Below, piece after piece: positions 15,311 to 61,951 of a stretch of DNA of 64,000 bases (positions are counted from its first letter, which is position 1; the number at the start of each line of letters is the position of its first letter). The notes below the pieces were generated by a model that saw only the letters and a program-made list of their open reading frames with translations, did not search any database and was not told where the DNA came from. The stretch is from Trigonopsis variabilis (lineage: Eukaryota > Ascomycota > Trigonopsidomycetes > Trigonopsidales > Trigonopsidaceae). A program made the translations under genes and the position numbers. The DNA lies in contig PPXM03000001.1 of assembly GCA_003707065.3 (NCBI GenBank), positions 496,001 to 560,000 on the forward strand, read 5' to 3'.

Positions 15311-17278
15311 ATGAGCGAGAAACTCACAAGGTAAGTTAGCGGCATGGTATTATGCTAATGCAAGAATCGCCATTGTCAATCAAGACAAATGTAAACCAAA
15401 AGTATGCATTTAGTATTTGTCAGCGTTGGTTAATCAGTTAGAAATGTCATCAAGAATGCCGACGGTCGTGTCCCGTGGTCAAAACTGGAAAGTTGTGTAT
15501 TGAGGTTACTCCCGCATCTAAGATTGCATTTATTTCGGAGACTTTATGGTACCTATCTCTCTGTTGTCGGAGCTAATGATTATAGCATCGGTTGTGGTAT
15601 TTGTTCGAAAAAGTGTCCGTTTGGAGGTATAATTGAAAGCCAAGATTTTGAATACTAATTGCATTTAGCTATTCATATTATAAATCTACCAACAAATCTC
15701 GATTCTGAGGTTACTCATCGTTACTCAGCGAATTCGTTTAAGTTACATAGGCTGCCTACTCCCAGGGCGGGAGAAGTGCTAGGATTAGTTGGAACTAATG
15801 GTATTGGAAAGTCCACTGCTCTGAAGATTTTGGCTGGGAAGCAAAAGCCCAATTTAGGAAGATATGATGATCCACCTCAATGGGATGAGATCATTCGATA
15901 TTTCCGGGGATCAGAGTTGCAGAATTATTTCACCAAAGTGTTAGAAGATAATTTAAAATGTATTATTAAACCACAGTATGTGGATCATTTACCAAGAGCT
16001 ATTAAAGGTCCGGTGAAGAAGGTCGGAGATTTATTGAAAGCTAGAGCATCCAATGATAACTTAGATGCATTACTTAAGAATTTGCAGTTGGGTTCAGTGC
16101 TAGAACGTGAAGTAGCGCAGTTATCAGGTGGAGAACTTCAACGGTTTGCAATTGCCATGTCAGCGGTCCAGAAAGCTGATGTCTATATGTTTGATGAGCC
16201 CTCTTCCTATCTAGATGTCAAACAACGTCTCAAGGCTGCTGAAGTCATCCGATCTTTGTTGAATATAGAAGTTTATGTCATTGTGGTTGAACATGATTTG
16301 TCAGTGCTGGATTATCTTTCTGACTTCGTCTGTATTCTTTATGGTGTGCCTTCGGTATATGGTGTTGTTACTCTTCCTTTGTCGGTTCGTGAAGGTATTA
16401 ATATTTTCCTTGATGGTAATATCCCTACTGAGAATCTCCGTTTCCGAAATGAACAGCTTCAATTTCGAATGATTGATGCCCAGGATCAAATGGCTATCGA
16501 TAGAACCCAACAATTCCAATATCCTTCAATGGAAAAGACCCTCGGAGATTTCAAGTTGACTGTTCAATCTGGAGAGTTTACCGATTCAGAGATCGTTGTC
16601 ATGATGGGAGAAAATGGCACTGGTAAGACCACATTCATCCGGTTGATGGCGGGTTCTTTAAGTCCTGATAATGGCAAGAAAGTCCCTGAACTTCGGGTTA
16701 GCATGAAACCTCAAAAAATTGCGCCCAAGTTTACCGGTACTGTCAGACAACTCTTCTTCAAGAAGATCAGAGCCTCTTTCCTTCACCCTCAGTTCCAAAC
16801 TGATGTCTGCAAACCTCTTCGCATCGACGATATCATCGATCAGGAAGTTCAGAATTTGTCAGGTGGTGAACTGCAACGAGTGGCCATTGTTCTTTCCTTG
16901 GGTGTGCCTGCTGATATCTATCTTATTGATGAGCCCTCCGCTTATCTCGATGTCGAGCAACGTATCATCTGTTCAAAGGTCATCAAGCGTTTCATCATGC
17001 ATGCCAAGAAAACCGCTTTTGTGGTTGAGCATGACTTTATCATGGCTACTTATCTTGCTGATCGGGTTATTGTTTTTGAGGGAGAACCATCCGTTCATGC
17101 TATTGCCACCCCGCCGCAGAGTTTACTCACAGGCTGTAATACCTTCTTGAAAAACTTGAATGTTACTTTCCGGAGAGACCCTGTCTCTTTCCGTCCCCGA
17201 ATTAATAAACTTGACTCGCAGATGGATCAGCAACAAAAAGCATCGGGAAATTACTTCTTTCTTGAATCAGTGGAGTAA
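15311..17278 (+). CDS. RLI1: Ribosome recycling Fe-S ABC ATPase Rli1/ABCE1 (5 exons)
   Basis: Model: 15311-15330, 15365-15401, 15442-15548, 15586-15626, 15669-17278; 604 residues (yeast 608). All four introns are tiny (34, 40, 37, 42 nt) and end in TAAT-containing branch sites followed by AG. Splicing restores the two 4Fe-4S motifs: one with [11 protein letters not shown] and a later LC, the other [18 protein letters not shown] domain 1 has Walker [10 protein letters not shown] near residue 112, signature LSGGELQR near 221 and [10 protein letters not shown]. Domain 2 has GENGTGKTT near 381, a second LSGGELQR near 465 and [10 protein letters not shown]. The C terminus has NYFFLE. Rli1 splits post-termination 80S ribosomes with eRF1 or Dom34 and is an essential cytosolic Fe-S protein. 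The first exon codes only MSEKLT plus two bases. Confidence 0.96.
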
Positions 17279-17405
17279 TTTGTCTCATGGGGTTTGTCGG
17301 AGCATTGTTGTGTACGTTAGTAAAAGTTTTTGCGATTAAAAAGGATCTAGATCCTTGATAAACTAACATCCACGCTAATCTTATTTACAAACTAAATCTA
17401 AAATT

Positions 17406-19268
17406 TTATTTAGACCGTAAGGGGCCGTCAAAGTCATACCGAATTCTTTTTTTAGCTCGGGGATCCGCCCTTGGATCTTGTGGCGGGCGCTGTTCGTCCT
17501 GAGATCTAGAACGGATGCTCCCTCGCCGTTCTTTGTCTTGCTCCCTTGGTCTGGGTCGGTCGACTGATAGCTCAACAGGTTCGATACCCTCTAATTTATC
17601 TTTGAGGCGTCTAATATGTTTCTCAAACGCTTGTTCACGAGTGGCTTCGTCAGGTAGAGCAAGGAATTCTTCCGAATCTTTGATTCTTTCACGTACTGAC
17701 TCCCATGAGTCTCCTATCTCAACTGGGGGCTCCAAGTACTTAATATGATGGCGAAGATCGTCAATTTTCCTTCGCAACCGCCGCTTTTCCAGGTATTCTT
17801 GATCCTCCTTTTTGGCTTTAGCCTTCTGATGCAAGTAGTCAAGCTCTACAGTAATAGCCAGATCTGATATTTTATCGCCATATTTATCTTTTTTGATCAG
17901 ATCAATCAGTTCTTCGCGTGTGGTTGATTCTGTGTAAGGGAACCTCGTATCGTGGACTATATCAGCAATCACATCTCGTTCTTTATTTAAGCGAATGTCT
18001 AAAACATCAATCAGATCCATAAAGAGATCCAAAGGAGTTGATCCAGATTGATGGCATAGCTCAATCAATCGGGAATCATCGTGAATAGATGAAAAAACAG
18101 AAGTCCAACGAGTCTTTGCTGTGATTTTCCCTTTATCTTCAAATTCCTGTAGTAGTTGCTTGAAATTTTCTCGAACTAAACGCTCTTTACGTCTTTGAAT
18201 CATTTGCTTTTCTTCCCGACGATGAACTTCAGACTTTTCAAGCTCTCTCATATGATGCTCAAAAAGGACGAGGATGTCTATTTTACTGAGCTTTGACATT
18301 TCCGGATCTGACGTAAATACTGAGTCACCCGTGATTTCATCGTATGATTCTAGCCAGTGAGCATTTGGATCTTTGATTAAATGTTTCAGTAGTCCATCTA
18401 GTTTGTCTTGGCTGCGCTTAGTCAAAGCCTCGTATTCATTGTTATGTTTCTCACGCAAATCTTTGACGAATTTCTTGAAAATTCGATGTTTAAGAGTATC
18501 TTCATCCCAAGAATAGAAAGCGACGTCTCCAGATAAGATTCTTTTGGCCGTTGTCCATGAGGTATAATATTTGATCTCTGGAGTTTTGTTAAGTAATTTT
18601 AAAAAACTCGAAATGAAGGCTTTCCGCTTTGAATGGTACTCGCGGAGATATTTTTCTCTGTATTCTTCGATATAAATCTCAAACACTCGTTTTCGATCCG
18701 TCGGAGTACGCAGAGCACGATAATCCGGATCGTCCACCAATAACGGTATAGCATCAGTCCAAACGCAATCATGAGGAAGCTTATGACGTTCCAACATCCG
18801 AATAAAAGCATCTTCTGCATCGTGTAATGACTTATATTGAGTCGGTGGCCGCTCAATCTGTTCCGTTCGACTTCTCCTTTCCCGGTCCCACTCTTCTTCT
18901 CGTTCTCGTTCTCGTCGCTCACGTTCAGCTTGCGTGTTTTCAGCTTCTTGGGCTTTTTCTACATTTCTGACTTCTTGTTCAGCTTCTTGCATCAGTTTCT
19001 CAAGCTCGGGAGGAATTTCCCAAACGCTTTGCTTTGTTTCCTGATTATGCCAATACTTTCTACCCCCTTCTGCTGTATATTCTTTCCAAGGAGAATCAGC
19101 TACTCGACGCTGTCCTTAGCTCTCATATTCGAAGCTTCAACCCTAATGTTCACTCACCTCGGCTGGGGTCATCAATTCTACCGGTTTCGTCCAGACTGAC
19201 TCCCGAGTCTGGGAGTTATAGTAATATTTCCTTCCATCACTGTTCGTGAACTCTTGCCAAACGGACAT
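17406..19268 (-). CDS. PRP40: U1 snRNP protein Prp40 (2 exons)
   Basis: Model: complement of 17406-19109 joined to 19158-19268; 604 residues. The 48-nt intron begins GTGAGT and ends GACAG; the nearer GTAG acceptor would break the frame, so this site is inferred from frame closure. Two WW domains lie at about residues 3-33 ([17 protein letters not shown]) and 44-75 ([15 protein letters not shown] ... SVWEIP). An Arg/Glu-rich coiled segment follows, then several FF domains from about 130 ([36 protein letters not shown]). The C terminus is basic and Arg/Glu-rich. Prp40 is a U1 snRNP component that bridges the 5' splice site to the branch-point proteins and binds the RNA polymerase II tail. It is divergent from SEM1 with 168 bp between start codons. 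Confidence 0.92.
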
Positions 19269-19436
19269 TGTTCAATTGGATTTCTGCCAAAAGATATAAT
19301 GCTCGGGACAGGTCACTCGCGAGTTGCCAGATAGGTCGCCCTTTCTAAAACAAACGTTCACCGCTCCCAGTACCTTGGTCTGTCCAACCTATGTAACGTG
19401 GCAACCATTCGTGAACCTTCGACTCTCTCTATTAAC

Positions 19437-19751
19437 ATGTCGGAAGATCGTCTTCAAGATAAACAGAACGAGGATAAGACACAGCAAACCTTAGAATCAC
19501 TTGAGGAAGATGATGAATTTGAAGATTTTCCAGTTGAAGGTACGAGAATCGGAGAGTAGACTGACCTCTCAGATTGGCAGGAACAAGAAACGGAATTAGG
19601 AATTAATGGGGGAAAGGAACACTTCTGGGATGTAAACTGGGATGATGATGATGTTGGGGATGATTTCTCCACTCTCCTGAAGTACGTATTTTTGAGCTCG
19701 GACTGAATCTAACATGATAGGGCCGAAATTGCTAAAGTGGAAGCTAAATAG
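19437..19751 (+). CDS. SEM1: Proteasome lid subunit Sem1/DSS1 (3 exons)
   Basis: Model: 19437-19539, 19573-19681, 19721-19751; 80 residues. The introns are 33 and 39 nt. The spliced protein has the two acidic, aromatic-spaced blocks that define the family: EEDDEFEDFPVE followed by W, and FWDVNWDDDDVGDDFSTLL. It ends KAEIAKVEAK. Sem1/DSS1 is a small, largely disordered acidic protein found in the 26S proteasome lid, the TREX-2 mRNA export complex and, in animals and some fungi, with BRCA2. The gene is too small and too split to appear as one open frame; the identity rests on the spliced sequence. It shares a short divergent promoter with PRP40. Confidence 0.93.
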
Positions 19752-20537: not shown

Positions 20538-22041
20538 ATGTCGCTTTCAAACAAACTTGCAATTACTGATTTAGACCTCAAAGGAAAACGAGTCTTCATT
20601 CGTGTTGGTAAGTGAACTCAATAGCCCATTCTGTTCATCCATTTCGTGTATTCGGTCCGGAAGAACGGAGAAAGCTTTGAGAAGGTAAAGTTGGAGGCAT
20701 TTCTCAATTGCTCTTCTTATGATGATTATCATCCTTCATAATTTTTTCATTGGCCATCAATATGATAATCATTGACTCTTCATCACCGTTGGTCCTTGAC
20801 CTTTCTTCCTCCCCTTTTGCCGTGTGATAATAGAACTATGACTTTTTTCTAATCTATCAGACTTCAATGTTCCTTTGGATGGATCCACTATTACCAATAA
20901 TGCTCGAATTGTGGCTGCTCTGCCTACAATTGAGTACGCCATCAAACAGCAGCCAAAGAGTATCGTCTTGGCTTCTCATCTAGGCCGCCCCAACGGAGAA
21001 CGTGTTGCCAAATACTCCCTTAAACCTGTCTCGACTGAACTTTCGAAGCTTCTTGGGAAGTCAGTGACTTTCCTAGATGACTGCGTTGGACCTGAAGTTG
21101 AAAAGGCCGTTGCCAATGCTAAGGATGGAGAAATCTTCCTTTTGGAGAACCTTCGTTTCCACCCAGAAGAGGAAGGTTCCCAGAAAATTGATGGCAAGAA
21201 AGTCAAAGCTGATCCTGCTAAAGTCGAGGCTTTTAGAAAATCATTGACGTCTCTCGCTGACGTCTATGTCAACGATGCTTTCGGTACTGCCCATCGCGCT
21301 CACAGTTCGATTGTTGGCATTGAACTTCCTCTCCGTGCATCTGGTTTCTTAATGAAGAAAGAGCTCGATTACTTTGGCAAGGCTCTTGAGAACCCAGACC
21401 GTCCGTTCTTGGCTATCTTGGGTGGTGCCAAGGTGGCCGACAAGATTCAACTTATAGACTCGATGTTGAGTAAGGTCAATAGCATCATTATTGGAGGTGG
21501 TATGGCCTTCACTTTCCTAAAGGTTGCAGACGATGTCAACATTGGCAAATCCCTTTTTGACCCTGAAGGAGCCAAGATTGTCAGTGACCTTCTTTCCAAG
21601 GCTAAAGCTAATAATGTCGAAGTCATTCTCCCTGTTGATTTCATCACTGCTGATAAGTTCGATAAGGATGCTGAGACTGGCTATGCAACCTCCGAACAAG
21701 GTATCCCCGATTCCTGGCAAGGACTTGATGCTGGCCCCAAGTCTCGAGAGCTCTTTCGCAAAGCTATTCTCAAATCTAAGACCATTGTCTGGAATGGACC
21801 ACCTGGTGTCTTTGAATTCGACAAATTTGCCGAGGGCACCAAGTCCATTTTGGATGCCTGTGTCGAAGCTTGCAAAAAAGGCGCTACTGTCATTGTTGGT
21901 GGAGGCGATACCGCTACTGCCGTCAAGAAATACGGTGATGAAGATAAAGTATCTCATGTGTCTACCGGTGGCGGTGCCTCTCTTGAACTGTTGGAGGGCA
22001 AGGCCTTACCTGGTGTCGTTGCCTTGACCGACAAAAAATAA
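20538..22041 (+). CDS. PGK1: Phosphoglycerate kinase (2 exons)
   Basis: Model: 20538-20607 joined to 20861-22041; 416 residues, the same as yeast Pgk1. The 253-nt intron is one of only three longer than 100 nt that I placed outside CHD1. It splits the conserved [10 protein letters not shown] motif (R-V-D codon, phase 1). Other signatures are the substrate-binding [50 protein letters not shown], and the C-terminal [11 protein letters not shown] and [14 protein letters not shown]. The enzyme makes ATP and 3-phosphoglycerate from 1,3-bisphosphoglycerate in glycolysis and runs in reverse in gluconeogenesis, in the cytosol. The gene shows C-ending codon preference stronger than its neighbours (for example GCC, GTC, AAG, ATC), consistent with high expression. 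Confidence 0.97.
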
Positions 22042-22204: not shown

Positions 22205-24433
22205 TTATTTACAGTTTCTCAGCTCAGGTGGACGATATTCAATCCCAAGAATTTCAAATATTTTCCTTTCGCTAAAGCTTTCGACAAGATCTTCAGGTGC
22301 ATGTCTGCCTTCTCCACGACTAGTGCCAGTGTATCGATAGAGACCACTATTAGTAAGAGAATATCCTTTTTTTCGAGCATGCAGTCTCATGCTGCGGTTG
22401 AAAATATCGTCACCAGTCTCGGTCTTAGCCAGAAAAACGTGCAGTAAACTTACAAAGTAGATCAACCGAGCTCCTAGCTCTGACCAACGGATAGCAATGA
22501 AGTCTTGCGACATGTCAGAGAATCGCGAAGTTATGAACTTACCTATCCGGCGATAAATCCCAACAGATGGTAAAACTGAGGCACCATACCATTTACGACC
22601 TGAAACTGTCAAATCGAACTTTAGAAAACCAGTTGTCTTAAGAATCGCTATGATTTTAGATAGAAGTTCTACAGTTAGAGCAGAAAGTCGTCATGCCTTA
22701 CCTTCGGCTTCAGATATTGTCGCATTTTCCTTGGTAATTAGGAGGTCGATCTTGATATTAGAAATAATCAGAAGAGTAACATACATCTCCGCTATCAGGA
22801 GCACCACGACGGTAGCTTCCCATTATATAAGCCTTCGCGTCTTTATCGATCAACTTGAGAGCTTCGATCACGATTTGTCCATGTTGGGCAACTTCTTCTC
22901 GAGGGATCCGGCTATTAAAGTCCTTGATATGTTACCTTGAACTTATGAATTTCTCATACCTTATAGTATTTGAGCCCTAATTTCTGATTATGACTCAATT
23001 CTGCTTTTTTTCTTATGTCGTCCAAAGTCCGGAACCCTTTTGCATACCAAAGCTCGGCTGTACTTGTTCCCACGCCCCAAATTCCCAGAAATAACTGGAT
23101 TGTTCTTGTTCTGGGGTTTGTCTCGGCATAAGCCAACTGCTGAAGATCATTAGTCTGGACGATCTCTTCCAATTTAGCGGCTAATTTAGTGCCCCACCCT
23201 GGAAGGCTAGTATTAGATTATATGATTCACGAGATATCCTACTTCATAGCTTCCTTCGCAGTTTTTATTTCGTGAGGAGCTCTTTTTAAGCTATTCAGGG
23301 CCTTTCTATAGGCCAGAGCATGATATTGATCCCCTAATGTCTCGTAATATTTCTGCAGCCGACCCAACTAGAATTATTAGCGATAAAATTTTACAGTCTT
23401 ACAATAAATTCCACTTTTGCGTTAGGGCGGTTTTCCATTTTCTGGTGGCTGGTTCCATTCGTGCATGTGAATGCCTGTAGCCAGGTTTCTTTCGATTCTT
23501 CACCATTCATATATTTTTCGATAGATTCATCCATTTTTGTTTCATTGATCATTTCGCTCAATTCATCGTAAAGGGCAGTTGGATGTGAAGTTTTATTGGT
23601 ATCTTCATGTGGAGGAGACAAAGCTTCTAACTGCTTCAAATCTAAGCTATCATGTGGACCACTTGATTGAGTATTACTCTCTGACTTGCTTGATTCTTGA
23701 GGCCGCGCTTTGGTAAGATCCAACATTTGGTAGGCAGCACAGTTCGGATCAAGCAATTCGCCAAGCTAGATAATTGTTCAGAAAGCATGGCTATAGTGCA
23801 CTTACCTCAATGCAGTCAGAAACCCAGCCCTCGACTACAAATGAGACATTCGATGGAAGAGTTTTTAAACCCAGCTCCTTTAATACTTGCTCTTTCACCC
23901 ATGGTTTGGTGCCTTTCGAGTAGCTGTCGATAATAACATTGGTGACCTTGTCATCTAGTTTTGAAGCGATCTCAGCTCCATGTTGGTGCGCGACTCGCTC
24001 TTTTAACTGTCTCACTTTGGTGTGCGAAGGCGGGAAGTAATCTTTCCATGTTAGTAGGACACATGTAGTCAAACACACAAAATCTTAACCCTTGGAATAT
24101 TTGTTTAGATAGGCCAATAGTACTCTTCACCAACGAATGACTGATTTTCCCTGACGCTTCTCTATTATTGTTCCCCTTATCGCTAATAGTAGAAGAACAG
24201 GCTAGATGCGATACCGATGGAGTATTTTTCGAGTCAATGGTATCACCAGTATTTGAACCAGATACAATATTATGTGAGGCAGGTATCTTTCCTTCTCTTT
24301 CACTATTCTTTGGCATTTTCCCTAAATCTCGCTCGCTCTGTGGATATTCCTCCTCATCGGATAACGAATCAACATAGTTTAAATAGTTGAAATATTTCCT
24401 CTTTCTGACATAATGGCCATCATCTGAGCTCAT
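22205..24433 (-). CDS. POL4: Family X DNA polymerase (Pol4 / Pol lambda-like), 10 exons
   Basis: Model: complement of 22205-22417, 22454-22503, 22543-22668, 22702-22750, 22785-22922, 22960-23206, 23243-23367, 23403-23765, 23806-24041, 24079-24433; 633 residues. All nine introns are 33-40 nt. Order: disordered acidic N terminus; BRCT domain at about 112-197 (IFQGLRF, LKERVAHQHGAEIA, VVEGWVSDCIE); Ser-rich linker; 8-kDa region and helix-hairpin-helix motifs (GIWGVGTSTAELWYAKGFRTL); palm with MGSYRRGAPDSGDIDLLIT (Asp488, Asp490) and YRRIDFIAIR (Asp547); then YFTGDDIFNRSMR. All three catalytic aspartates and the YF-TG pair are present, so it should be active. Family members fill gaps in non-homologous end joining and base excision repair. 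Assignment to Pol4 rather than Pol mu or lambda is by fungal context. It is divergent from the sirtuin gene. Confidence 0.88.
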
Positions 24434-29056: not shown

Positions 29057-29500
29057 ATGGATCCGTCCTTCACCGTCTATCTTCGCTTTCCTTTTCCCCG
29101 AGGGCCCTTCAAGGACCCACCCATTGTTCGTGTGCTCCATCTTCAGCTTAACTAACCCAAGATCAACTGGACGCCGGCCCGAGATCAAGCTCTTTGGGCT
29201 GCTCTAAAGGATAATCCTGACTGGGAGGCTCTGGCGGATAAGTTCAGTGTCTCACAGGCATTCTTACTTCAGAAAGCTGCCGCCCTGTATCAGCATCAAC
29301 TGGACCATGTGAGATCAGCGATGGAACGGATGGCTATGTCTTCACAGCAACCCCGACGATCTACGTCGTCCAATAGACTTGATATCCCTCTTGGTGAGCT
29401 GGACTGCCCACCACAAAAAGTTGCTGGTCTTGCACTCGATTCAATGGGGTCGTCGCTGGAAAGTGCGGATGGTTCGAACTTCTCCCATCTGTCAGAATAG
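29057..29500 (+). CDS. ATG29: Autophagy scaffold protein Atg29 (2 exons)
   Basis: Model: 29057-29125 joined to 29162-29500; 135 residues. The 36-nt intron starts GTTCGT and ends CCCAAG, with a CTAAC branch. A donor six bases later (GTGCTC) would also keep the frame, so the exon 1 end is not certain. The N terminus reads MDPSFTVYLRFPFPRGPF, then after splicing INW, ALW, DWEALADKFSV, FLLQKAAALY and QLDHVRSAM, the conserved Atg29 N-terminal domain. A short Ser-rich tail follows. Atg29 works with Atg17 and Atg31 as the scaffold that starts autophagosome formation in ascomycetes. The protein is shorter than yeast Atg29 (213) because the disordered C-terminal part is short. Confidence 0.85.
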
Positions 29501-32570: not shown

Positions 32571-35141
32571 ATGGATAGCCGGGTAAAACAGGATATCAAA
32601 GAGAAATTCTGTTATGGAGCCAACAAGTAAGTGAAATAAATGACAACCTAATGTATTAGTAAGGTGTCGTGGTCTCGATCAGGATTAATTGCGTATATTC
32701 AAGATGACCGGGACCTACAAGGCAATTGTCGAGTATGTACGACCTATATGGAAACATTGAATGGAGAGGGCTGGTCATTGGCTCCTTCAACTCCAATCAA
32801 GGATCTGAATGGGAATATCCCACTAATATGTCTTGGCTGGAGTATGCTCGGGACAGATTTGATATGCGCCGATGTATTTGGCAGGATTCATATTTATTAC
32901 TTCTCTTCCATACAAGCTCCCACGGTCTGTATCTATCGGTCCAGTGCCCTAGGCGAAGATGACATGGAATCTTTGGTTATGCTTCAATGGCTCAGTAGTG
33001 AGAAACCTATCTACGTTGGCAATATGGCCAATAGAAATGGACCCAAATATGACTATATAATTCAACAGACCCGGCCTAGCAGACCAACCCATCCGCCAAA
33101 CATCCGACAGGCTGTCCTTGGTATCACTCAAAATGGCAAGATCAAGCTGTGGTACCAGACCGATATGAAATACAGAGAAATCTCCCAGCCTCTCGATCCC
33201 GACCTGACATGCCAAGATTTTTTTTCCAATGCCACCTTTGACAACTTATCAAACGACAACTGTCTTGTCATTGTTGCCTATGCCCCTGTGACTTCCCGCC
33301 TGCTGATGTATAAACTGATCATTAACTGGGCAGGCACATCATCAAGTCAATCATCTGGCTCACCTCAATCTCAAGATGGGGTCAGTTTTCAAATATCCAG
33401 GCTCTACTCCGCCCACTTCACTGTTCTAGATGCGTACTCTCTCAGTCATCTCGAACTGATTTCTTCTTTACCTCCTCAAAACAACCTGGTTCTGTTATCT
33501 GTTCTCTCAAATGACAGTCATTCAGTCATCCAACGTCATGAGGTCTCAAATTTTACTCCTTCAATTCACCCCAATCTCGATCAACTTAGTCACGGGGCTA
33601 AGTCTCCTAATGAAACTATGATCTCCCTGACAGCGAGAGACCCACTTCGTTGTTCAGCCTTGCTTTCCAAAATCGAAATTCCGCCTTACGAAAAGTTCAT
33701 TGTTATCACCTACTCTAATGGAGATATTGAGTTGAGAGATCGAAATAGCCTCCAACTCTCATTTTCTCAGTATCCACCGGAGTCTATCGTCACTTTTTTT
33801 GACGTTGGATTTTCCGTCCCCAAGATTGCTAATACCAGAAATATCACCCTTTCTCCTAATTTGGTCTGCTTTGTTGTTTATAATGATGATGATGATGAAA
33901 TGCTGCAGTTATATAGGCTGATTAGAGAGCAGCCATCAAACGATGATATACCTATTGTTGCGACTGCCATGGGGCTTCGACATTCAATTGCCTGTTTCAA
34001 AAACTCATTTAGTGACGATCTTATCTACACCATGTCTCAGCTTATTACAAAAAGTCACAGTAATTTTCTAGATAAGGTCTTTATGGAATGCCATAAAGGT
34101 CTAACATTCTCAATTGATATTCAGAGAGATGCTCAGGTTGACAAATTGATGGTCAATCCTGCCTTGCAACGATTAGTAAGCTTGCAAGTTGCTTTAGGAA
34201 CAAGAGCTCAATGGAGCCGCCCGCTCAGTGGGAGGGTTGCTTGGGGCCTACAAAATCTCCGTCATTTTGCGTTCGCCCTAACGTTTACTTTGCGAGCAGC
34301 TCAAGTCCAAAAACAGACCAACTTATCGGAAGGAGAAGCCAGGGCCGCTAACATAACTTGTATGTTGGGACTCATTCGTTGGTGCGTTGATTTTATTTGC
34401 TTTCTCGTGCAAGAAATTTTCCCGCACGTTCATGATCCCGAGTATTTCTTTCAACCAGACATGTCAAGTGTGGCTTTGGCTTTGTTGCTGGGCTCCGTTC
34501 CTCGAATTTTTCTTCTCTATGCAGTACGAGGAATCCGAGGCCTCGAGCAAACGATTGAACGTCATGCTGAAAAGGAAAATAATCCCCAAGGGCCGGTCGT
34601 TCAAGCTCGAAATTCCCTTCGAGCTATAGTCCAAGCAAGCCCGATACCCCTGGAGTTCTTTGAGAAGTTTACCAACGAGATTGATCGTTACGTGAAAGCC
34701 ATTTATGCCAATAGCAAGGAATCCGCATCCTTAGAATACAGCCTTCTTTTCCGGGGGAATGTTGGACGTGAGTTGCGACCGGTTGTCTCCCGCATCAATC
34801 AGCTTTTTGCTGAACGGCTTCTTGATGAGATTGACCTGATAAATACATTCTTCTATGACACCGTTTGGTTGGGACTTGATAGCGTCGGTCCCCGATACCT
34901 GGCTTCTCGGCAAAGGATAGATGGATTGCGTAAGGTCATTCTGCCTTCTAAGCTGCCCCGAGAGCGGGGACGAATCTGTCTTCGATGTGGTTCTATATAT
35001 GCAATAGAAGAGCAGATCTCCCGCCCTGTCAATGGGGAGAATCGCTTCCCACAGACTTGGACAATGGCTTTCCAGAAAACATGTCTTTGCGGAAGCCCAT
35101 GGACACGAGTTGCGATAGTAGATGGAAAAGTCATACGATAG
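32571..35141 (+). CDS. MED16: Mediator tail subunit Med16 (2 exons)
   Basis: Model: 32571-32626 joined to 32660-35141; 845 residues. The 33-nt intron starts GTAAGT and ends TTAG with a CTAAT branch. The N terminus after splicing, NKVSWSRSGLIAYI, is the start of the beta-propeller: SWSxxGxIA is a typical first WD-like blade in Med16. Further blades include LTIPLICLGWSMLGTDL-type and ITQNGKIKLWYQ segments. A helical middle follows. The C-terminal block at about 786-830 has CLRCGSIYAIEE and CLCGSPWTRV, the zinc-binding module conserved in fungal Med16/Sin4. Med16 joins the Mediator tail module (Med2, Med3, Med15, Med5) to the middle and relays signals from activators and repressors. Confidence 0.85.
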
Positions 35142-35464: not shown

Positions 35465-38415
35465 ATGCCCAGAGAGTATTCGCCGCGACGGCGTTCTCGG
35501 TCCCCTCGACGAGACGAAGATAGATCATATTATAGAAAAAGGTATGATAGAGGCCGTTCGTATCGCCATGAGCGCTCTGATGATGAAGATGGGCAACAGG
35601 ACCGCAGAAGAGGCCATGAGCGAAACCAAGATCGATATCGAGGTTCAGAGCGAACCGGTGAGAAGCAGAATGACCAAAGGAACAAGCCTCGTGGCCTTGA
35701 GGAAGTGAGTGCAAAGAAACGAAGGAGTCGATGGGATAAAACGCCAGCAGAGGAGCAGATGAGTGACACGTCGTCTGATCTGATGCAGAAATCCCAAGAA
35801 TCCCGACATGCTGCTGATTCGAAGGAAGTGAGTGAAGATCGTAATGAAGCTGAGAAAGGTACATCCACTGAAAGAGAAAGCGGGGATCAAAAAGTTGACG
35901 CCGATCTCAAGAGTGAGCCTAAAGTTTTGACTGGGTTTAAGAAGGTTGGCTCTGGCGGAAAAAATGGAGAGAGATCTCAGGCTGAGATTGAACGCCAGAA
36001 GCGACTGGAGAAGTTGGAGAAGTGGAAAAGACAGAAACTTGCCAAATCAGGAGGCCTACCTCAGATTAAATTACAGATAGGAGGAAAGCCAAAGGAGCCT
36101 CTGGAAAATGAAACTACTAAAGTAGTCAAGAAGCCCAGGCTTGGTTTTAGCGATGATGAAGACGGTCAGGACGATCGACCGAGAAGAAAGCTAAGGCTCT
36201 TACCAAGAGGGGGCGACGAACTCGATAAAAAAGGTGAGGATGACCAAAGCTACGATGAAGATCAACTTGACACTATACTTAGAAATATGGATCAGTCGAC
36301 GATTAGTGAGAATAATTCAAGTCATTTGGCGGAGAAGGTCATGCTCGATGAGGAAGACTCCTCATATGGTCGTGCTCTAGGGACCGAAGAACTCGATGAG
36401 GATGTATTGGAACCGGAAGCTGTATTATCGTTGGTGAACCAAAAGAAAAAGAACCTGATTGCTGTTGATCATTCGAAAATTGAATATAAACCGTTTAGGA
36501 AGAACTTCTTCCATGAGCCCTCAGAAATGGCCTCAATGACCGAAAAGGAAGTAGACGAGCTGCGATTGGAGTTGGATGGAATAAAGATTCGGGGTCTAAA
36601 TTGTCCTAAGCCCGTTCAGAAATGGACACAATTTGGACTGCCTGCTCCTACAATGGGGGTTATTAATCGGTTAGGGTACGAGAAGCCGACTGCAATTCAG
36701 GCGCAGGCTATCCCTTGTATCATGTCAGGCCGCGATGTCATTGCAGTTGCCAAGACTGGAAGTGGTAAGACCATTGCTTACCTATTACCTCTCTTCCGAC
36801 AGATTAAAGATCAGAGGCCATTGCAAGCCATGGAAGGACCCATGGCTCTTGTTTTGACACCAACAAGAGAACTCGCCGTCCAGGTCTTTAAGGAATGCAA
36901 GCCTTTCCTCAAGGCGTTAAATCTTAGAGTGAGTGTTACTTTGGCTTAACTTTTGATTAACTTCAGGCTGTTTGTGCATATGGAGGTGCCCCAATCAAAG
37001 ATCAAATTGCTGAATTTAAACGCGGTGCAGAGGTCGTGGTTTGTACTCCTGGACGTATGATTGATATCTTGGCAGCTAACAATGGGCGAGTTACCAATCT
37101 TCGCCGAGTGACTTTTCTAGTTGTCGACGAAGCGGATCGAATGTTTGATATGGGGTTTGAGCCTCAAGTGATGAAGATTATCCAAAATATCCGTCCTGAT
37201 AGACAGACCGTTCTATTTTCAGCAACCTTCCCTAGGGCTATGGAGAATCTGGCTAAAAAGATCCTACACAAACCTCTCGAGATAGTAGTTGGAGCTCGAA
37301 GCGTTGTAGCTCCGGAAATTACTCAGGTGGTTGAAGTTAGAAACGAAAATACCAAGTTTGTGAGAGTGCTTGAGTTACTGGGAGATCTTTATAACCGAGA
37401 GTCCGATGCTCGGACTCTGATATTTGTTGATCGGCAAGAACACGCTGATAGTCTACTAAAAGATCTGCTTTCTCGTGGCTATCCTTGCATGTCGCTTCAT
37501 GGAGGCAAGGATCAGCTGGATCGGGATTCGACAATTCAAGACTTCAAAAGCGGCGTCATTCAGATTCTCATTGCAACATCAGTGGCAGCTCGTGGTCTTG
37601 ACGTTAAGCAGCTCAAATTGGTCATCAATTACGATTGTCCTAATCATTTAGAAGACTATGTCCATCGTGTAGGTAGGACAGGACGTGCTGGTAACACGGG
37701 CACTGCTGTGACTTTTATCACTCCGGAACAAAATTCTGGTGCCTTTGCAGTGTCTAAAGCTCTCAAATTTTCTCAGCAACCCGTTCCCGAGGCTGTTGCC
37801 AAGATTGCTGATGAGTTTTATGAAAAGTTACAAGCGGGTAAGGTCACTATGGGCTCTGGATTTGGTGGTAAGGGCCTCGAGCGATTAGATGAGGAGAGAA
37901 ATCTGACCAGGCGACGAGAAAAGCGTGCTTACGGTGGGGATGATGTGTCTGATGACGAGGAGGAAAAGAAAAAGACCAATGAAAGCACTCCTGCTGCCGC
38001 AGCGGCCTCCAAAACAGAAGAGGAGGCCCAATTCGATAGCAAGTTCGGCGCTACTAAGATCGTCTCAGGACATGCTCCTGAGAATCACGGACCGGATAGC
38101 GGTGCTTGGCATGCGATCATTGAGATCAACGATTTTCCCCAGAAAGCGCGTTGGGCAGTCCTCAACAGAGGAAACGTAACTAAAATCAATGAAATGTCAG
38201 GTGCGTCGATCACTCAGAAAGGCATCATCTATAAACCTGGCGAACAGGTTCCTCCTGGGGGTGAACCGAAATTGTACTTACTCGTCGAAGGGGAAAGCGA
38301 GCTGTCTGTGGATGTTGCTGTTCGAGAGCTCAAACGAATTCTATCAGCAGCTATCCTTTCCCAGGCAGAAACTGATAGCCGCTTTGGGGGATCAGGAAGG
38401 TATTCGGTTGTTTAA
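35465..38415 (+). CDS. PRP5: DEAD-box RNA helicase Prp5/DDX46 (2 exons)
   Basis: Model: 35465-36928 joined to 36967-38415; 970 residues (human DDX46 1031). The 38-nt intron is GTGAGT...TTCAG and restores [20 protein letters not shown]. Residues 1-110 are rich in Arg-Ser and Arg-Asp ([16 protein letters not shown]-like); then come acidic and Lys-rich segments. A DPLD-type motif, which in Prp5 contacts SF3b, was not clearly seen. The helicase core has Q motif [22 protein letters not shown] near 430, [22 protein letters not shown] near 543, SATFP near 573 and [10 protein letters not shown] near 720. A KH-like C-terminal domain follows ([18 protein letters not shown]). Prp5 proofreads the branch-site/U2 duplex and lets U2 snRNP join the intron. 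The start is the first ATG before the RS-like region. Confidence 0.92.
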
Positions 38416-44500: not shown

Positions 44501-45338
44501 GTCAAAGTGACGTAAAGGAGATCACCGCTCAATGTTTGCTCCAGAGTGGGCGGATGCCAGCATGAAAGAGAAAGAGCCTTTAAGCACGGCTTAGGAAGAG
44601 CCTCAGGAGGAGGCAGAAACGACTTGGGTGACCTAGCAAAAGAGAACGACTCCAATGCGTTCTTCATATTCGCTTCCTTTTCATACTCCGGAAACAAAGA
44701 TCTTCCAGATTCGTATGCATTGAGAGATGAACCTGTTTTCCCACTGATTCCCAACAGTTCTCTAACTCGACAAAGGTGAGAACGAGCAGTTTTATCATTA
44801 TAAGGATCTAAATGTAGGGTAAGGGTTGACTTGTCAACCAGTCCCGGGATAGTATGAATCTCAGATAAATCGCTTAATGGCTCATCTCCCAACCAAAGAG
44901 AAAAGCATGTATAGTGGCACGTCGAGGGAAGGTCCAGAATACTTTGTTTAATATCATGAATGCTTTCTCGAGAAGATACCTAGTGAATTAGCCGGCTCAA
45001 TATCTTCAATCTTACAGCCACTAGAATTGATCCCGGAGGTCCAGGCAGTTTAATGTTCAAGCTAAGCATTTGAACCACTTCAGAAGGAAATCACACCATT
45101 CTCGATCAATCGTCGAATAGTCACTATATTGACTTATCCGACTCATGGATCAAGGAGCGAGATGCCAAAAAAATGTCGTTAGTCCAAGATCTAAAGCCAA
45201 GCAAGGAAAGAGCGATTCTTACCATTTACTTCATCGGGGACAGATTCCACTAGTTATTAGTGACATGCTTTCTCGGTAGCCAAAAGAGCTAATAAATATT
45301 ATAAACATACCTTGATGAGCTTCCGATTCACTGCTCAT
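41560..45338 (-). CDS. CLU1: Clustered-mitochondria protein Clu1 (4 exons)
   Basis: Model: complement of 41560-44979, 45016-45077, 45223-45249, 45311-45338; 1178 residues. Introns are 36, 145 and 61 nt, and the first three exons are only 28, 27 and 62 nt. The spliced N terminus reads MSSESEAHQ, VESVPDEVN, VVQMLSLNIKLPG, and then VSSRESIHDIKQSIL, the Clu N-terminal domain. The Clu domain lies at about 360-560 (HAGIFYSYGADGIGVF, DLVGVRFVSQLDVIGI, YGGVDG, RRYILDLYRLAPPD), followed by an eIF3-associated helical region. TPR repeats lie at about 880-1090 (AYSKLAMIYNGLGDKDLAIEL) and the C terminus is Lys-rich. Clu1/CLUH binds mRNAs for mitochondrial proteins and keeps mitochondria spread in the cell; yeast Clu1 copurifies with eIF3. 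The first two exons rest on frame closure and are less certain. Confidence 0.9.
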
Positions 45339-53754: not shown

Positions 53755-56700
53755 ATGGGAAAAAAAGTCCTGGATTCGAGAATTCCGGCTCTAATAAGGA
53801 ATGGTTCACAGGTATGGAGCAATAAATGGGTTAAAGACTAACTGAGTAGAAAAAAGAACGAAGTTTCTTTATTATTGTTGGCGATAAAGGCCGAGACCAG
53901 TTGCCTAATCTTCATTACCTAATGGCAACCAATGATCTGAAAATGAATAAGAATGTGCTGTGGGCTTATAAAAAGGATATGCTCGGGTTTACAAGGTGAG
54001 TGCAGCAGACGGAGGGCGAAACTGATGTCAGTCACCGCAAGAACCGTGAAAAAAAGATCAAACGAGATATCAAGAGAGGAATTCGAGAAGCCAATGATCA
54101 AGATCCTTTCGAATTCTTTATCACTAATACCAATATTCGATATGTATATTATCGAGAGACGGAGCAGATTCTAGGTAACACTTACGGAATGTGTATCCTG
54201 CAAGACTTTGAGAGTTTGACGCCCAATTTATTAGCACGGACTATTGAAACGGTAGAAGGTGGAGGATTAGTTGTCATGTTGCTCAAAAGTATGACCAGTT
54301 TAAAACAGCTTTATACCTTGACTATGGACGTCCATTCACGATACAGAACAGAGTCTCACCACGACGTGGTTGCCCGGTTTAATGAACGATTTTTATTGTC
54401 GTTAAGAGACTGCCCTACATGCTTGGTTGTCGATGATGAGTTAAATGTCTTACCTATTAGCGGAGCAAGAAATGTGAAGGCCTTACCTCCGCCTGAGAGT
54501 GATGAGGAAGATGAGGAAACAGACGAAAATGGCTTCCGATACAGAGCTAGAGAACTTAGCAATATAAAAGAGGGTCTTTCTGACGTTCAACCTGCGGGTG
54601 CTCTGGTAGGGATCACTAAAACTTTTGATCAAGCAAAGGCTGTGCTGACATTTATCGATGCCATTGCTGAGAAAACTCTGCGAAGCACCGTAGCTCTTAC
54701 AGCATCTCGTGGTCGTGGTAAATCGGCTGCCCTGGGTATTGCCATAGCAGCTGCTATTGCTCATGGATACTCTAATATTTTCATCACTTCTCCAAGTCCC
54801 GAGAACTTGAAGACTTTATTCGAGTTTATTTTCAAAGGTTTCGATGTTTTGAATTATCATGACCATCATGACTATGATATCATAAGATCTGAAGATCCTA
54901 ATCTTAATAAATCTATCGTTCGAGTCAATATTTTCCGGACCCACCGACAGACAATTAAATATATCCATCCGTCTGATGCCCAAGATCTCGGATTGGCAGA
55001 ATTAGTGGTTATAGATGAAGCTGCAGCTATTCCTTTACCATTGGTTAGAAAGCTCTTGGGACCTTATTTGGTATTCATGGCTTCTACAATTAACGGATAT
55101 GAAGGTACTGGGCGGTCTCTTTCATTGAAACTAATCCAGCAATTACGGGAGCAATCTAGAATTGTTCAACCAATCGATCCTGGTGCTAAAGGTCCTGAAG
55201 TCATCGTTGATCGTGTCACGGGTAAGCAGTCCAGAGATGCTCTTCCACCTGCTTCAGGTAGTCGAGTTTTAAGGGAAATTAAACTAGAGGAGTCTATCCG
55301 ATATGCTCCTGGGGATCCAGTTGAAAAATGGCTCAATAAGCTCTTATGTCTTGATGCGTCTAGCGGATTAGGTCGGTTTCCAAAAGGCTGCCCTCACCCT
55401 AGTAAATGCAATCTCTTCTATGTCAACAGAGATACACTATTTTCTTATCACCCTGTCTCGGAAGCATTTCTTCACCGCATGATGGCATTATACGTGGCTA
55501 GCCATTATAAAAACTCTCCCAATGATCTTCAACTTCTGTCTGACGCTCCTGCGCACCATCTTTTCGTTCTCTTACCTCCCATTGACGATAACGATAACCG
55601 CCTACCTGAGCCGTTATGCGTCGTCCAGATTGCCTATGAAGGTCAAATATCCCGACAGTCTCTCTTAAAGAGCCTTAGCAGAGGAGAACGCCCTGCTGGA
55701 GATCTGGTCCCTTGGTTGGTGACTACCCAATTTCTTGATGACGAGTTTGCTTCCTTGTCCGGTGCTAGAGTTGTCCGTATCGCGACTCACCCTGAATATA
55801 TGAAGATGGGATATGGATCCAGAGCACTTGAACTACTCAACCAATATTTTCAAGGCAAGTTTCCTAGTCTCTCCGAAAATGGTGATAATGATCAAGAGCT
55901 TGAATTCAGACGAGTGAACGACCAAGAACTGGAACATGCCTCCTTAGCAGAAGCAAAAATCCGAGATATATCCAAAATGCCTCCTTTGCTGCTAAAACTG
56001 GAAGAGAAACGGCCTCATAGCCTTGACTATCTTTCAGTATCCTTCGGATTGACATCAGAGTTATTAAAATTCTGGAAACGAGGCGGCTTTTGCCCATTCT
56101 ATGTTAGACAAACTGCTAACGATCTGACTGGAGAATACACGACTGCTATGATTAAACCTTTGCATGGTCAAGAATCATCATGGCTAGGAGCGTTTGCCCA
56201 AGATTTTCAGGGACGATTCCTTGAACTACTATCGTATGAATTCAAGTCTCTTCCCCTCGTTCAAGCCCTTTCGTTGATCGAAGCTGCGGACAACGGAATA
56301 GAGAAATTTCTTGACTCTTCGTCTGTTTTCTTGCCATCAAAAATTACCTCGAAAGCTGAACTTTATAGGTGGTTTTCTCCTTATGATCTCAAAAGACTGG
56401 ATTCTTACGCTTCCAATATGTCTGACTACCATGTGATAGTTGACTTATTGCCCAAACTAGCTCTTGCCTTCTTTGGCCATCGTCTCAATGACTTTAAACT
56501 GTCTGCGATCCAAAGCTCTATTATGCTGGCTATTGGATTGCAACGCAAATCCATAGAGGCAATCTCTAATGAGATCAATTTACCTGTTAGTCAAGTGCTC
56601 GCTATGTTTGCTAAGGCTATCCGGAAGTATTCTCAAGCATTCAAGACGACTCTTACTCAGGAGATCGAAACGTCATTACCCACATCTTCTGATGCTGCTA

Positions 56701-57059: not shown

Positions 57060-57130
57060 TCAATATAGACTCAGGCAGTTCTACGTGTATGTATAGTACA
57101 GAGAAAACAAAACTTTATTCTAGTTGTACC

Positions 57131-58977
<1,847 letters not shown>

Positions 58978-61951
58978 ATGGATGATAATCTCTACGATGA
59001 GTAGGTAAAAAACAAGAATCAATTAACGGTTAGATTTGGGAACTTCATTGGAGATGTCAACGATTCGGATGCCGAGAGTGAAGTGATTGATCAAGAAAAT
59101 GAAGAGATTGAAGAAGAGAAATTTTCCGACGAGGAAATGCAAGGAGTCAAAGGTATGGACAATTGTATTCATTAACTGAGACCCAGAATATCAAGATCAA
59201 GACCAAGCCATTGTACTGCACGAAGATAAACAATACTATCCTAGTGCTGAAGAGGTGTTTGGTCCCAATGTGGAAACCTTGGTCCAAGAAGAGGACACAC
59301 AGCCACTCAGTGAACCTATTATTGCTCCTATAAAAGTTAAGAAATTCTCAATAGAAGAAGAAGGTTTGCCTCAGGTGTCGTTTTCCCGAGAATACTTGGT
59401 CGATTGCTTGGAATTTCCAGATATGATTAGAAATGTGGCTATTGTGGGACAGTTTGAGCATGGAAAAACTGCCTTAATAGATCTGATGATCTCCAACACG
59501 CATGAAATTAGATCTCTCGAGGGAAAACGCCAAGATGAACAACTACGGTATACTGACACGACTACTCTCGAACAGAATCGAGGAATGTCTCTAAAAGCTA
59601 AACCGGTCTCGATTCTATTCGAAAACACCAAAGGAAAATCTTATTTATTGAATCTAATGGATACTCCTGGCCATGTAAACTTCGTGGATGAGATGGTAGC
59701 TGGACTAGCTCTAGCTGACGGTGCTTTATTGGTAGTTGATGTAATCGAAGGTGTTGATATAAACACTGAAACCATTATAAATCATGCTATCAAGCAGAAT
59801 ATTCCACTGTCGCTGGTCATTAATAAAATCGACAGGTTAATCCTGGACTTAAAGTTACCCCCAGTTGAAGCTTATTACAAAATACGTCATACCATTGATG
59901 AAGTCAATAAAGTCATCTCTGATGCTTCTCCTGGTCGGCTTGACCTGCGCATATCTCCAGAATCAGACAATGTTGCCTTTGCGTCCTTCTCGACCGGTTG
60001 GTGCTTTACCTTATCTTCCTTTGCTGCTTTATATACGACATCCTTTCCTGAAATATCTGCCGCTGACTTTGCTAAACGGCTTTGGGGAGATATTTTCTAT
60101 TCAAATCGCAAATTTGTTCGTCGCGGAGTTGATCCTTCTGCTCCAAGAACGTTTGTCCATTTCATCTTAAATCCTCTCTATAAACTGCATTCGCTGGCTC
60201 TCGGAGAACCACCTGCTACTTTGTCAATAGCTTTAGCGAAACTAGGCCTTAAATTAAAACCAAAAGAATATAAACTCGACCCTTGGCCTTTGCTACGGGC
60301 TGTTTGCAAAGAATTTTTTGGTCGTCCTACTGGCTTGGTGGATCTAATGGTGGATTCCTTTCCATCACCCTTGTCTAATGCCTCTAATATCTCGTCAATG
60401 ACTTACACTGGTCCTTTAACAGCACCTCTAGGCCAGGCCATCTCTGGCTGCGCCATCGAAGGCCCGCTTGTTGTCCATGTCACCAAACTGTACCCTTCTC
60501 AGGATGGAGCTAGCTTTTATGCCTTGGGCAGGGTTATGTCTGGTATATTAAGAAATGGGGCATCCATAAAGGTTCTAGGAGAAGAGTTTTCCCTGGATGA
60601 TGAAGAAGATTGTGCTTTGGCTACCGTTGATGGCCTCTGGATATATGAGTCGAGATATAAGATCCCTGTCCATGTGATTCCTGCAGGTAACTGGGCTCTT
60701 ATCGGTGGAATCGATGCGACAATTGCAAAAACTGCTACTCTAGTCGATCCAGATGCTTTAGAGCCTTATATTTTTAGTCCCTTGAAGCATGTGACATCGT
60801 CCGTGGTGAAAATTGCTGTTGAGCCAGTCAATCCTTCTGAATTACCAAAAATGCTCGATGGACTTCGCCAACTGACCAAGTCATATCCATTGTTGGATAC
60901 GAAGGTAGAAGAATCAGGAGAGCATGTGATACTTGGTACAGGGGAACTATTTTTGGACTGTGCCCTCCATGATCTTCGTCGGATGTTTGCTGACATGGAA
61001 ATAAAGGTCTCGGATCCTGCTGCGAAATTTTCCGAGACTGTGGTGGAGATGTCTGCAGTAAAATGCTACGCAGCCACTCCAAATAAGCGTAATAAGCTCA
61101 CTATGGTTGCTGAGCCCTTAGATGATGGCCTAGCCGAGGAAATTGAAAACGGTGCAGTTAGTATACAATGGCCAGCTAAGAGGTTGGGCAGTTACCTTTC
61201 AGACAACTATGGATGGGACGTACTGGCTTCCCGCTCGATTTGGGCATTTGGCCCGTCAGACGCAGGTCCAAACATCTTGGTCAATGACACCTTACCGTCA
61301 GAGGTTGACAAGAAGTTACTGGGCTCTGTGAGAGAATCAATTCGTCAAGGTTTTCAGTGGGCAACAAGAGAGGGACCACTCTGTGATGAACCGATAAGAG
61401 CCACGAGGTTTCGACTGACGGATGCTTTCCTTGCACCTGAGTCTATTTATCGTGGAGGAGGTCAAATTATCCCCACGGCTCGCTTAGCTTGCTACTCTTC
61501 GTTTTTGATGGCAAGCCCAAGGCTGATGGAACCTGTTTATGGATGTTATATACTTGGCTCAGCTGACTCCGTGTCCGCCGTGTATAACTTGCTTGCCCGT
61601 CGACGAGGCCACGTCTTGCACGATACTCCGGTGGCCGGAACACCCTTGTATCGAGTCCGAGGATTGGTGCCAGTGATGGACTCGTTTGGATTTGAAACCG
61701 ACCTTCGAATCGCTACTGAGGGTCAAGCTACGGTGTCACTTGTCTTTGACAAATGGCAAGTCGTTCCTGGAGATCCTCTTGATAAATCGGTGATCGTTCC
61801 TCCATTAGAACCAGCAACAGGACAAGCTCTCGCGCGCGATTTTGTGATCAAAACGCGACGGCGAAAGGGATTGAGTGAAGAGCCAACTGTGACCAAGTAT
61901 CTCGATCCCGAATTAATTGCCAGTCTACGTGAAACTGGTTTGTTAGATTAG
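58978..61951 (+). CDS. SNU114: U5 snRNP GTPase Snu114/EFTUD2 (3 exons)
   Basis: Model: 58978-59000, 59034-59152, 59187-61951; 968 residues (human EFTUD2 972). Introns are 33 and 34 nt, and exon 1 has 23 nt. The spliced start MDDNLYDEFGNFIGD is the conserved acidic N terminus. GTP-binding motifs: GQFEHGKT near 135 (G1), RGMSLKA (G2), DTPGHVNF (G3) and NKID (G4). Elongation-factor domains II-V follow, with RFRLTDAFLAPESIYRGGGQIIPTARL cut here as RGGGQIIPTAR and the late PVMDSFGFETDLR. It is the EF2-like GTPase of the U5 snRNP and U4/U6.U5 tri-snRNP that works with Prp8 and Brr2 to control unwinding of U4/U6 and disassembly of the spliceosome. Divergent from ERG10. Confidence 0.95.

Follow-up and report, generated by a model that had tools for sequence, protein, structure and literature searches.

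The window, a 64,000-nt stretch of a Trigonopsis variabilis contig, carries a series of very short predicted introns in conserved protein-coding genes. Three of these genes encode the core splicing proteins PRP40, PRP5 and SNU114, which an earlier note on this DNA had named correctly. The limits given there for the series, 15331 and 59186, coincide exactly with boundaries of recovered introns. The features are as follows, each with the evidence on which it is placed.

15311..17278, + strand: RLI1/ABCE1 gene, 604 aa once spliced
15331..15364, +: RLI1 intron 1, 34 nt (permissive model; gapless against S. cerevisiae Rli1)
15402..15441, +: RLI1 intron 2, 40 nt (permissive model; homology to S. cerevisiae Rli1)
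15549..15585, +: RLI1 intron 3, 37 nt (permissive model; homology to S. cerevisiae Rli1)
15627..15668, +: RLI1 intron 4, 42 nt (permissive model; homology to S. cerevisiae Rli1)
17406..19268, - strand: PRP40 gene, WW-WW-FF domains
19110..19157, -: PRP40 intron, 48 nt, separating the WW domains (gene model; WW1-WW2 gapless against S. cerevisiae Prp40)
19540..19572, +: SEM1 intron 1, 33 nt (gene model; homology)
19682..19720, +: SEM1 intron 2, 39 nt (gene model; homology)
20608..20860, +: intron of 253 nt (gene models) in a gene that we take, from recognising its sequence, to be phosphoglycerate kinase (PGK)
22205..24433, -: POLL, DNA polymerase lambda/beta (family X) gene, 9 introns
22418..22453, -: POLL intron, 36 nt, in frame (homology; missed by the gene models)
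22504..22542, -: POLL intron, 39 nt, in frame (homology; gene model)
22669..22701, -: POLL intron, 33 nt (gene models)
22751..22784, -: POLL intron, 34 nt (gene models; homology)
22923..22959, -: POLL intron, 37 nt (gene models; homology)
23207..23242, -: POLL intron, 36 nt (gene models; homology)
23368..23402, -: POLL intron, 35 nt (gene models; homology)
23766..23805, -: POLL intron, 40 nt (gene models)
24042..24078, -: POLL intron, 37 nt (gene models)
29126..29161, +: intron of a small uncharacterised gene, 36 nt (gene model only)
32627..32659, +: 5' intron of a probable MED16, 33 nt (permissive model; genome-wide pattern match; Med16 domains)
36929..36966, +: PRP5 (DDX46) intron, 38 nt, within the helicase domain (gene model; alignment)
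44980..45015, -: CLU1 intron, 36 nt (gene models; gene named by its CLU domains, junction model-based)
53812..53849, +: KRE33/NAT10 intron 1, 38 nt (gapless against S. cerevisiae Kre33)
53996..54031, +: KRE33/NAT10 intron 2, 36 nt (gapless against S. cerevisiae Kre33)
57998..58039, -: intron of 42 nt (gene models; single open frame over the junction) in what is presumably an acetyl-CoA acetyltransferase (ERG10-like) gene, identified by recognition
58499-58762: doubtful intron, 264 nt
59001..59033, +: SNU114 intron 1, 33 nt (homology)
59153..59186, +: SNU114 intron 2, 34 nt (gene models; alignment poorly conserved at the junction)

Splicing out the predicted introns gives back conserved protein in RLI1, KRE33, SEM1, PRP5, PRP40, POLL and SNU114. 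In RLI1, removal of all four introns rebuilds the cysteine-rich Fe-S domain, which then aligns without gaps to that of the S. cerevisiae protein, and the N-terminus of KRE33 is likewise gapless once its two introns are taken out. Removing 22418..22453 from POLL restores the segment YFTG...FNRSMR as in Pol lambda, and removing the first intron of SNU114 restores MDDxLYDEFGNxIG. The PRP5 junction falls at residue 168 of the aligned fragment, with no gap at that point.

Introns were predicted anew in the 264 kb around the window (C1:396001-660000) with a self-trained gene model, run as a uniform model with a flat intron-length prior of 15-300 nt, as a final model using both learned sites and a prior on length, and at a permissive setting that is more error-prone (126 short introns in the 264 kb against 48 and 43 with two decoys). 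Between 15331 and 59186 the final model places 22 introns. Exchanging one wrong RLI1 call for four introns, and including an in-frame POLL intron placed by homology, brings the total to 26, including the doubtful 264-nt one, and 23 of the 26 measure 33-42 nt. The permissive setting yields 33 introns (up to 34) over the same interval, 28 of them of 33-42 nt, and the earlier count of 30 of 37 in this size range is plausible. RLI1 introns 1 and 2 were merged into one by the uniform model, and the donors of intron 4 were misplaced by the stricter models.

Across the 264 kb, the uniform model predicts 79 introns, 43 of them of 33-42 nt and none shorter than 31 nt. The final model predicts 109 introns in 117 genes (0.93 per gene) with a median of 37 nt; 81 lie at 33-42 nt and 94 at 31-53 nt, and the mean over all 109 is 53.5 nt, falling to 40.0 nt when those above 100 nt are left out. 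On these models, intron sizes in T. variabilis appear to be mostly 32 to 47 nt. The short size had been described as a window-wide property, which it is, but it is not confined to the window: outside it, in the rest of the 264 kb, introns of 33-42 nt make up 60 of 83 in the final model and 29 of 58 in the uniform model, and the pattern counts given below extend it genome-wide.

Such a class could conceivably be a gene-finding artefact, in which GT..AG pairs occurring by chance span short frameshifts or insertions. Decoy dinucleotide pairs do still produce 15-26 short pseudo-introns in the 264 kb, and a dinucleotide-only model without splice-site weights hardly separates real from decoy signals (37 GT-AG introns, with 31 and 32 from two decoys), a null that we attribute to high penalties and to a coding model that was still weak at that stage; the length peak was resolved in later rounds, once generic donor and acceptor weights had been added. 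The decoy yield, obtained with four decoy pairs, nevertheless compares with 94 introns of 31-53 nt for the real signals in the final model, and in an earlier round without a branch term 36 introns of 30-49 nt were called, while seven decoy dinucleotide pairs gave 3-12. CTRAY is present in 21 of these 36 introns, which were picked without it, whereas shuffled interiors contain it in 11.4% of cases; the final model scores the word favourably, and 71.6% of its introns have it. A scan with splice signals only finds 47 candidates of 30-44 nt, compared with 3.0 in shuffles, and the lengths of the 94 final-model introns are spread evenly modulo 3 (34, 32 and 28), unlike the outcome of frameshift bridging. 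A weaker control, in which the branch word alone was reversed, returned 73 introns (56 of 31-53 nt) against 89 in the real run, many being kept because the donor, the acceptor and the length prior were still active. Together with the homology across junctions and a genome-wide spacing peak that needs no gene model, these results make the artefact very improbable, and it was rejected on the decoys, the signal-only scan, the RLI1 homology and the branch-word excess. The ultra-short class first noticed in the window is real: it forms a length peak under a flat prior, gives no such peak with decoys, and is crossed by protein homology. Given the decoy and reversed-branch yields, some members of the model-only set are false. 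Gene model and motifs were trained on the same region in which they were tested; the pattern counts on other contigs make no use of the gene model, although their motifs were derived from it.

The learned donor motif in the 264 kb is RG|GTAAGT. Genome-wide, the pattern GTAAGT-N-CTAAY-N{2,8}-YAG occurs 6 times with a gap of 2-11, 234 times with a gap of 12-21, 169 times at 22-31 and 83 times at 32-61, against 52, 41, 45 and 111 for a reversed-pattern control that differs from it in composition; the counts take in only introns with GTAAGT and CTAAY. Among the 198 matches listed, which cover the first places, the gap runs from 15 upwards, two rows at 13-14 excepted, with its maximum at 18-20, which translates to a branch adenosine at intron position 25 for the floor and 28-30 for the peak. 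Motif calls put the best branch motif at position 25-33 in 67 of 91 introns, and the early calls (position 22 or less in 9 of 91, position 23 in 5 of 91) are probably wrong choices of motif; if correct, they would blur the floor. These sequences and the edge in their spacing are observed, and the sharp limit is the distance from 5' splice site to branch. The earlier note had placed the constraint between branch and 3' splice site. This distance is narrowly constrained, but since 14 of the 15 introns longer than 60 nt share it, with the branch adenosine 5-12 nt from the exon, it is not what sets intron size. The 253-nt phosphoglycerate kinase intron, for instance, has a 3' end like that of the short introns (CTAAT, with 8 nt after the branch adenosine).

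The splicing machinery otherwise appears standard. A U1 candidate (61.3 bits, below the gathering score of 69.5) has the canonical 5' end AUACUUACCUG, to which the donor is complementary; the U2 GUAGUA is intact and complementary to the branch word; and U6 has ACAGAG, so that the pairing regions of all three RNAs are canonical. SF1, U2AF65 and U2AF35 are encoded, as is a RED-like protein in a 631-aa frame (RED_N, 42.6 bits with a cut-off of 22), which matched no solved structure at E 0.01. Introns of the U12 type have the donor RTATCCTT and the branch TCCTTAAC and are served by a U12 snRNA; the learned donor and branch motifs differ from these, and a U12 identity was rejected for the set on these motifs, while a minor class may occur elsewhere in the genome. 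The GT-AG ends, the U1-matching donor, the U2-matching branch and the restoration of protein on removal are all those of U2-type introns. Nothing in the signals, gene models and homology described here links PRP40, PRP5 or SNU114 to intron size.

These are very probably ordinary GT-AG introns of the major class (U2-type), shortened in a compact ascomycete genome to just above a physical floor. The introns would have shrunk until most sit slightly over the minimal distance between 5' splice site and branch. This distance governs their length and hardly ever falls below about 24-25 nt, leaving the branch adenosine mostly at position 25-33. The 3' end is a fixed module, consisting of RCTAAY, a distance of mostly 6-12 nt to the exon and a YAG end, without a clear polypyrimidine tract; nearly every longer intron shares it. 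Recognition and removal from the transcript would follow intron definition, U1, SF1, U2AF and U2 occupying sites that almost adjoin.

As in human ultra-short introns, which depend on Smu1 and RED, the limiting variable here is the distance from 5' splice site to branch, and a RED-like protein is present. Human introns in which this distance is less than about 46 nt fail to splice, according to two reports (PMC6692369, PMC11291888), whereas a branch adenosine at position 25-33 is the norm here; the signals thus appear to be closer together than the human machine tolerates. In the human B complex, a U6/5' splice site helix of 17 nt, a U2/branch helix of 14 nt and about 21 nt between them amount to about 52 nt (PMC6692369). 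An assembly pathway unlike the known one may tentatively be considered, with helices that are shorter, or formed sequentially, or with U2 much nearer the tri-snRNP; under that reading, because the usual 25-33 nt is about the length of the two helices themselves, geometry or order must differ from those of the human B complex. Another account leaves the spliceosome unaltered and treats the floor as historical, the product of drift under deletion bias, with an edge near 25 nt set by collision of donor and branch pairing in any spliceosome. The unchanged core snRNA pairing regions are consistent with it, as are intron interiors that are just slightly AT-richer than intergenic DNA. Human spliceosomes, however, already fail at about 46 nt, so that an edge near 25 nt calls for either another machine or another pathway; the account is unlikely.

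The shortening might also be a lineage norm of Taphrina type with nothing special to this genome, introns of about 40 nt occurring roughly once per gene throughout the lineage. Compact Taphrina genomes of 12-16 Mb have mean introns of 48-51 bp and 1.9-2.0 exons per gene (PMC4007546), to which the intron density and means found here are similar; the median of 37 nt is lower, and the Taphrina mean of 48 bp may hide a similar mode. In an Rli1 tree the genome falls with Saitoella and one other row on weak support (81/74), and its U2AF35 is 70% identical to the S. pombe protein. The closest named Rli1 matches, however, are Lipomycetaceae at 81-84%, with Saitoella at 78%; the closest named Iml2 matches are Saccharomycotina; and no row named Taphrina occurs among the 120 SNU114 matches listed. 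In an SNU114 tree without Taphrinomycotina rows, the window sequence has a very long branch, and the genome is not placed by it. A Taphrina-type norm is possible but somewhat doubtful. Since Taphrina already stands at a mean of 48 bp, the present genome is an extreme case of short-intron genomes already known.

The introns were correctly described as GT-AG introns with CTAAY/CTRAY branch words that are much shorter than most fungal introns, and the range of 50-90 nt cited earlier as the usual fungal centre holds for most fungi in one table (PMC2483917) but not for the Taphrina means. In Table 2 of PMC2483917, all fungal medians are at least 55 nt save that of a microsporidian. Schizosaccharomyces pombe (56 nt) and Cryptococcus neoformans (55 nt) share GT-AG ends and CTRAY-type branch words with the present set but have medians 18-19 nt longer, and the median distance from branch to 3' end in S. 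pombe is 12 nt (PMC4079972), compared with mostly 6-9 here. Encephalitozoon cuniculi is closer in size (median 32 nt), although just 13 introns were studied there (PMC2483917), whereas here there are some 0.9 per gene. A review describes the introns of Malassezia as very short but gives no figure. Fungal introns of equal shortness may well have been published already. The ciliates Paramecium (median 25 nt) and Stentor (15-16 nt) likewise have minimal introns genome-wide, but theirs are still shorter, AU-rich and of weak branch consensus.

The set bears on the mechanical question of what fixes the minimum length of an intron. With hundreds of natural substrates whose branch lies at 25-33, unchanged snRNA pairing and a RED-like gene, T. 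variabilis offers a test of the human limit of about 46 or 52 nt, and its spliceosome is a candidate for structural study. Gene finders tuned to introns of at least 50 nt would probably misannotate this genome, and stop-free in-frame introns such as POLL 22418-22453 and 22504-22542 would be read as protein insertions.

The predicted short introns are clearest in RLI1: once segments of 34, 40, 37 and 42 nt are taken out, the five remaining exons encode a protein that aligns with S. cerevisiae Rli1 over 191 residues without a gap. All four are also called, without homology, by a permissive gene model, a looser setting with more false calls. With two introns (38 and 36 nt) removed from KRE33, the first 200 residues align gaplessly, as does PRP5 with DDX46 over the junction of a 38-nt intron, and PRP40 over that of a 48-nt intron placed between its two WW domains. 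In SNU114, the conserved N-terminus is restored by taking out introns of 33 and 34 nt, the second junction lying in a variable stretch, and SEM1 is assembled from three exons (50.6 bits). A family-X DNA polymerase gene contains nine introns of 33-40 nt, two of which (window 22418-22453 and 22504-22542) are in frame and stopless; their excision restores a Pol lambda motif. One gene-model run read both as coding and the final model only 22418-22453; in automatic annotation, such introns would look like lineage-specific protein insertions.

The window, C1:496001-560000, was extended by 100 kb on both sides (the 264-kb region) and modelled on two strands. The gene model took its codon statistics from long open frames, represented introns explicitly and set a flat prior on intron length between 15 and 300 nt. 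With dinucleotides only, no excess of GT-AG introns appears in this region. Once generic weights are put on donor and acceptor, with the branch still left out of the model, 36 introns of 30-49 nt appear, compared with 3-12 for seven decoy pairs (other dinucleotides in place of GT and AG), and CTRAY lies inside 21 of them versus 11.4% of shuffled interiors. Learned sites (donor RG/GTAAGT, branch word RCTAAY, acceptor TYAG) under the flat prior give 79 introns in the 264-kb region, 43 of which measure 33-42 nt, with no intron shorter than 31 nt. The final model, whose length prior is derived from genome-wide pattern counts and which was trained on the 264-kb region itself, predicts 109 introns there, spread over 117 genes, with a median of 37 nt and 81 falling in the 33-42 nt range; its short introns number 94, against 15-26 for four decoy pairs. 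A run in which the branch word alone was reversed still gave 56 short introns, and thus donor, acceptor and length prior bear much of the model. A coding-blind scan for splice signals only finds 47 candidates of 30-44 nt versus 3.0 in shuffled sequence. The class proposed in the earlier note, introns of 33-42 nt with a branch word, is therefore upheld by the flat-prior peak, the decoys, the signal scan and the restored proteins. The gene model also places three introns near the 5′ end of a CHD1-like gene, beyond the range covered by that note:

window 12978-13016, minus strand, intron of 39 nt
window 13066-13100, minus strand, intron of 35 nt
window 13131-13164, minus strand, intron of 34 nt

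Across the genome (11.35 Mb, 15 contigs), exact matches to GTAAGT, a gap, CTAAY, 2-8 nt and YAG were counted on both strands, with the reversed pattern as control; these counts capture only introns with GTAAGT and CTAAY. There are 6 matches versus 52 reversed at gaps of 2-11 nt, 234 versus 41 at 12-21 nt, 169 versus 45 at 22-31 nt, and 83 versus 111 at 32-61 nt, a bin three times wider than the others. Among 198 listed matches from the first contigs (99 from each of two lists), intron lengths are 31-53 nt, mostly 32-47. Two rows apart, with gaps of 13-14, the gap is never below 15, and it is most often 18-20. The branch adenosine thus sits at position 25 of the intron or beyond, and most commonly at 28-30. 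Two nested matches (C7:293363-293412 and C2:1723476-1723513, on other contigs) contain a 22-24 nt GTAAGT..CTAAY..AG unit whose donor is common to a longer one, and are candidate twin introns or cases of alternative acceptors.

Branch points throughout are motif calls. In 91 model introns the adenosine has a median position of 29, with 67 at 25-33 and 14 at 23 or less; in these 14 the call is probably wrong. From the adenosine to the intron end there are mostly 6-9 nt among model introns of the 264-kb region. Introns above 60 nt retain 5-12 nt here in 14 of 15 cases, the sole exception (window 58499-58762) being a doubtful call, so that the 3′ module is fixed and the donor-branch stretch variable. 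The tight branch-to-acceptor spacing in the earlier note thus holds, but long introns share it, and it is the donor-branch stretch that varies. No clear polypyrimidine tract was found, T making up 37% from branch word to YAG versus 33% upstream. Longer introns, which measure 66-273 nt, are a minority in the 264-kb region, and 9 of the 15 come before any other intron in their gene; one of these longer introns, called by the gene models, is:

window 20608-20860, intron of 253 nt in what we take, from its sequence, to be the phosphoglycerate kinase gene

Sequence, spacing and restored proteins are established here. Most likely, the spliceosome would recognise each intron as one unit, U1 binding the donor and SF1, U2AF and U2 occupying the compact 3′ module, and deletions would have shortened introns until further loss left too little room from donor to branch. 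The shortest distance from 5′ splice site to branch that is still productive in human cells is given as ~46 nt (PMC11291888), and B-complex geometry is described as needing ~52 nt, of which the U6/5′ splice site helix takes 17 nt, the U2/branch helix 14 nt and the span between them ~21 nt (PMC6692369), in contrast to the motif-called norm of 25-33 nt in Trigonopsis variabilis. Both helices at human length would roughly fill this whole stretch, so assembly should differ; from distance alone, a difference in helix length, order or U2 placement may be suggested, tentatively and at well short of an even chance.

Fungal intron medians are at least 55 nt in Table 2 of PMC2483917, except in the microsporidian E. 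cuniculi (32 nt, from 13 introns), and the shortest mean reported among 61 species is 56 bp (PMC3033335). Ciliate introns are described as lower still. Taphrina, with means of 48-51 bp and about one intron per gene (PMC4007546), indicates that short-intron ascomycetes were already known; we therefore rate Trigonopsis variabilis as an extreme case of known short-intron genomes. Best matches are 62% identical for SNU114, Iml2 is 36% identical to Blastobotrys and Rli1 84% to Lipomyces; in an unrooted Rli1 tree the window sequence groups, with weak support, with Saitoella and one other row, adjoining Lipomycetaceae. By these comparisons the genome is that of a deep-branching ascomycete, with no close relative among the matches listed. 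Intron density in the 264-kb region, 0.59 per kb of coding sequence, falls between the 1.1 given for Lipomyces starkeyi and the 0.04 given as the mean of Saccharomycotina (PMC8476143). In the same region, 46 of 109 introns lie within the initial 10% of their gene's coding sequence, a strong 5′ bias. Such bias is commonly taken as a sign of intron loss via reverse-transcribed mRNA.

The genome encodes SF1 (131.6 bits), the U2AF small subunit (304.7 bits), a RED-like N-terminal domain and, in a single 508-aa frame, a U2AF large subunit whose 281.4 bits lie under the curated cut-off of 310.3. U2 snRNA carries GUGUAGUA and U6 snRNA GAUACAGAGAAGAUUAGCAUGG; a U1 candidate, scoring under the family gathering threshold, starts at its 5′ end with AUACUUACCUG. 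The U2 (C1:580972-581163, plus strand, where C1 is PPXM03000001.1) and putative U1 (C1:582830-582984, minus strand) genes are convergent, 1.7 kb apart, and lie 21-23 kb past the right end of the window. A tRNA gene at window 38971-39059, 89 nt long versus a 71-position model, probably has an intron of its own.
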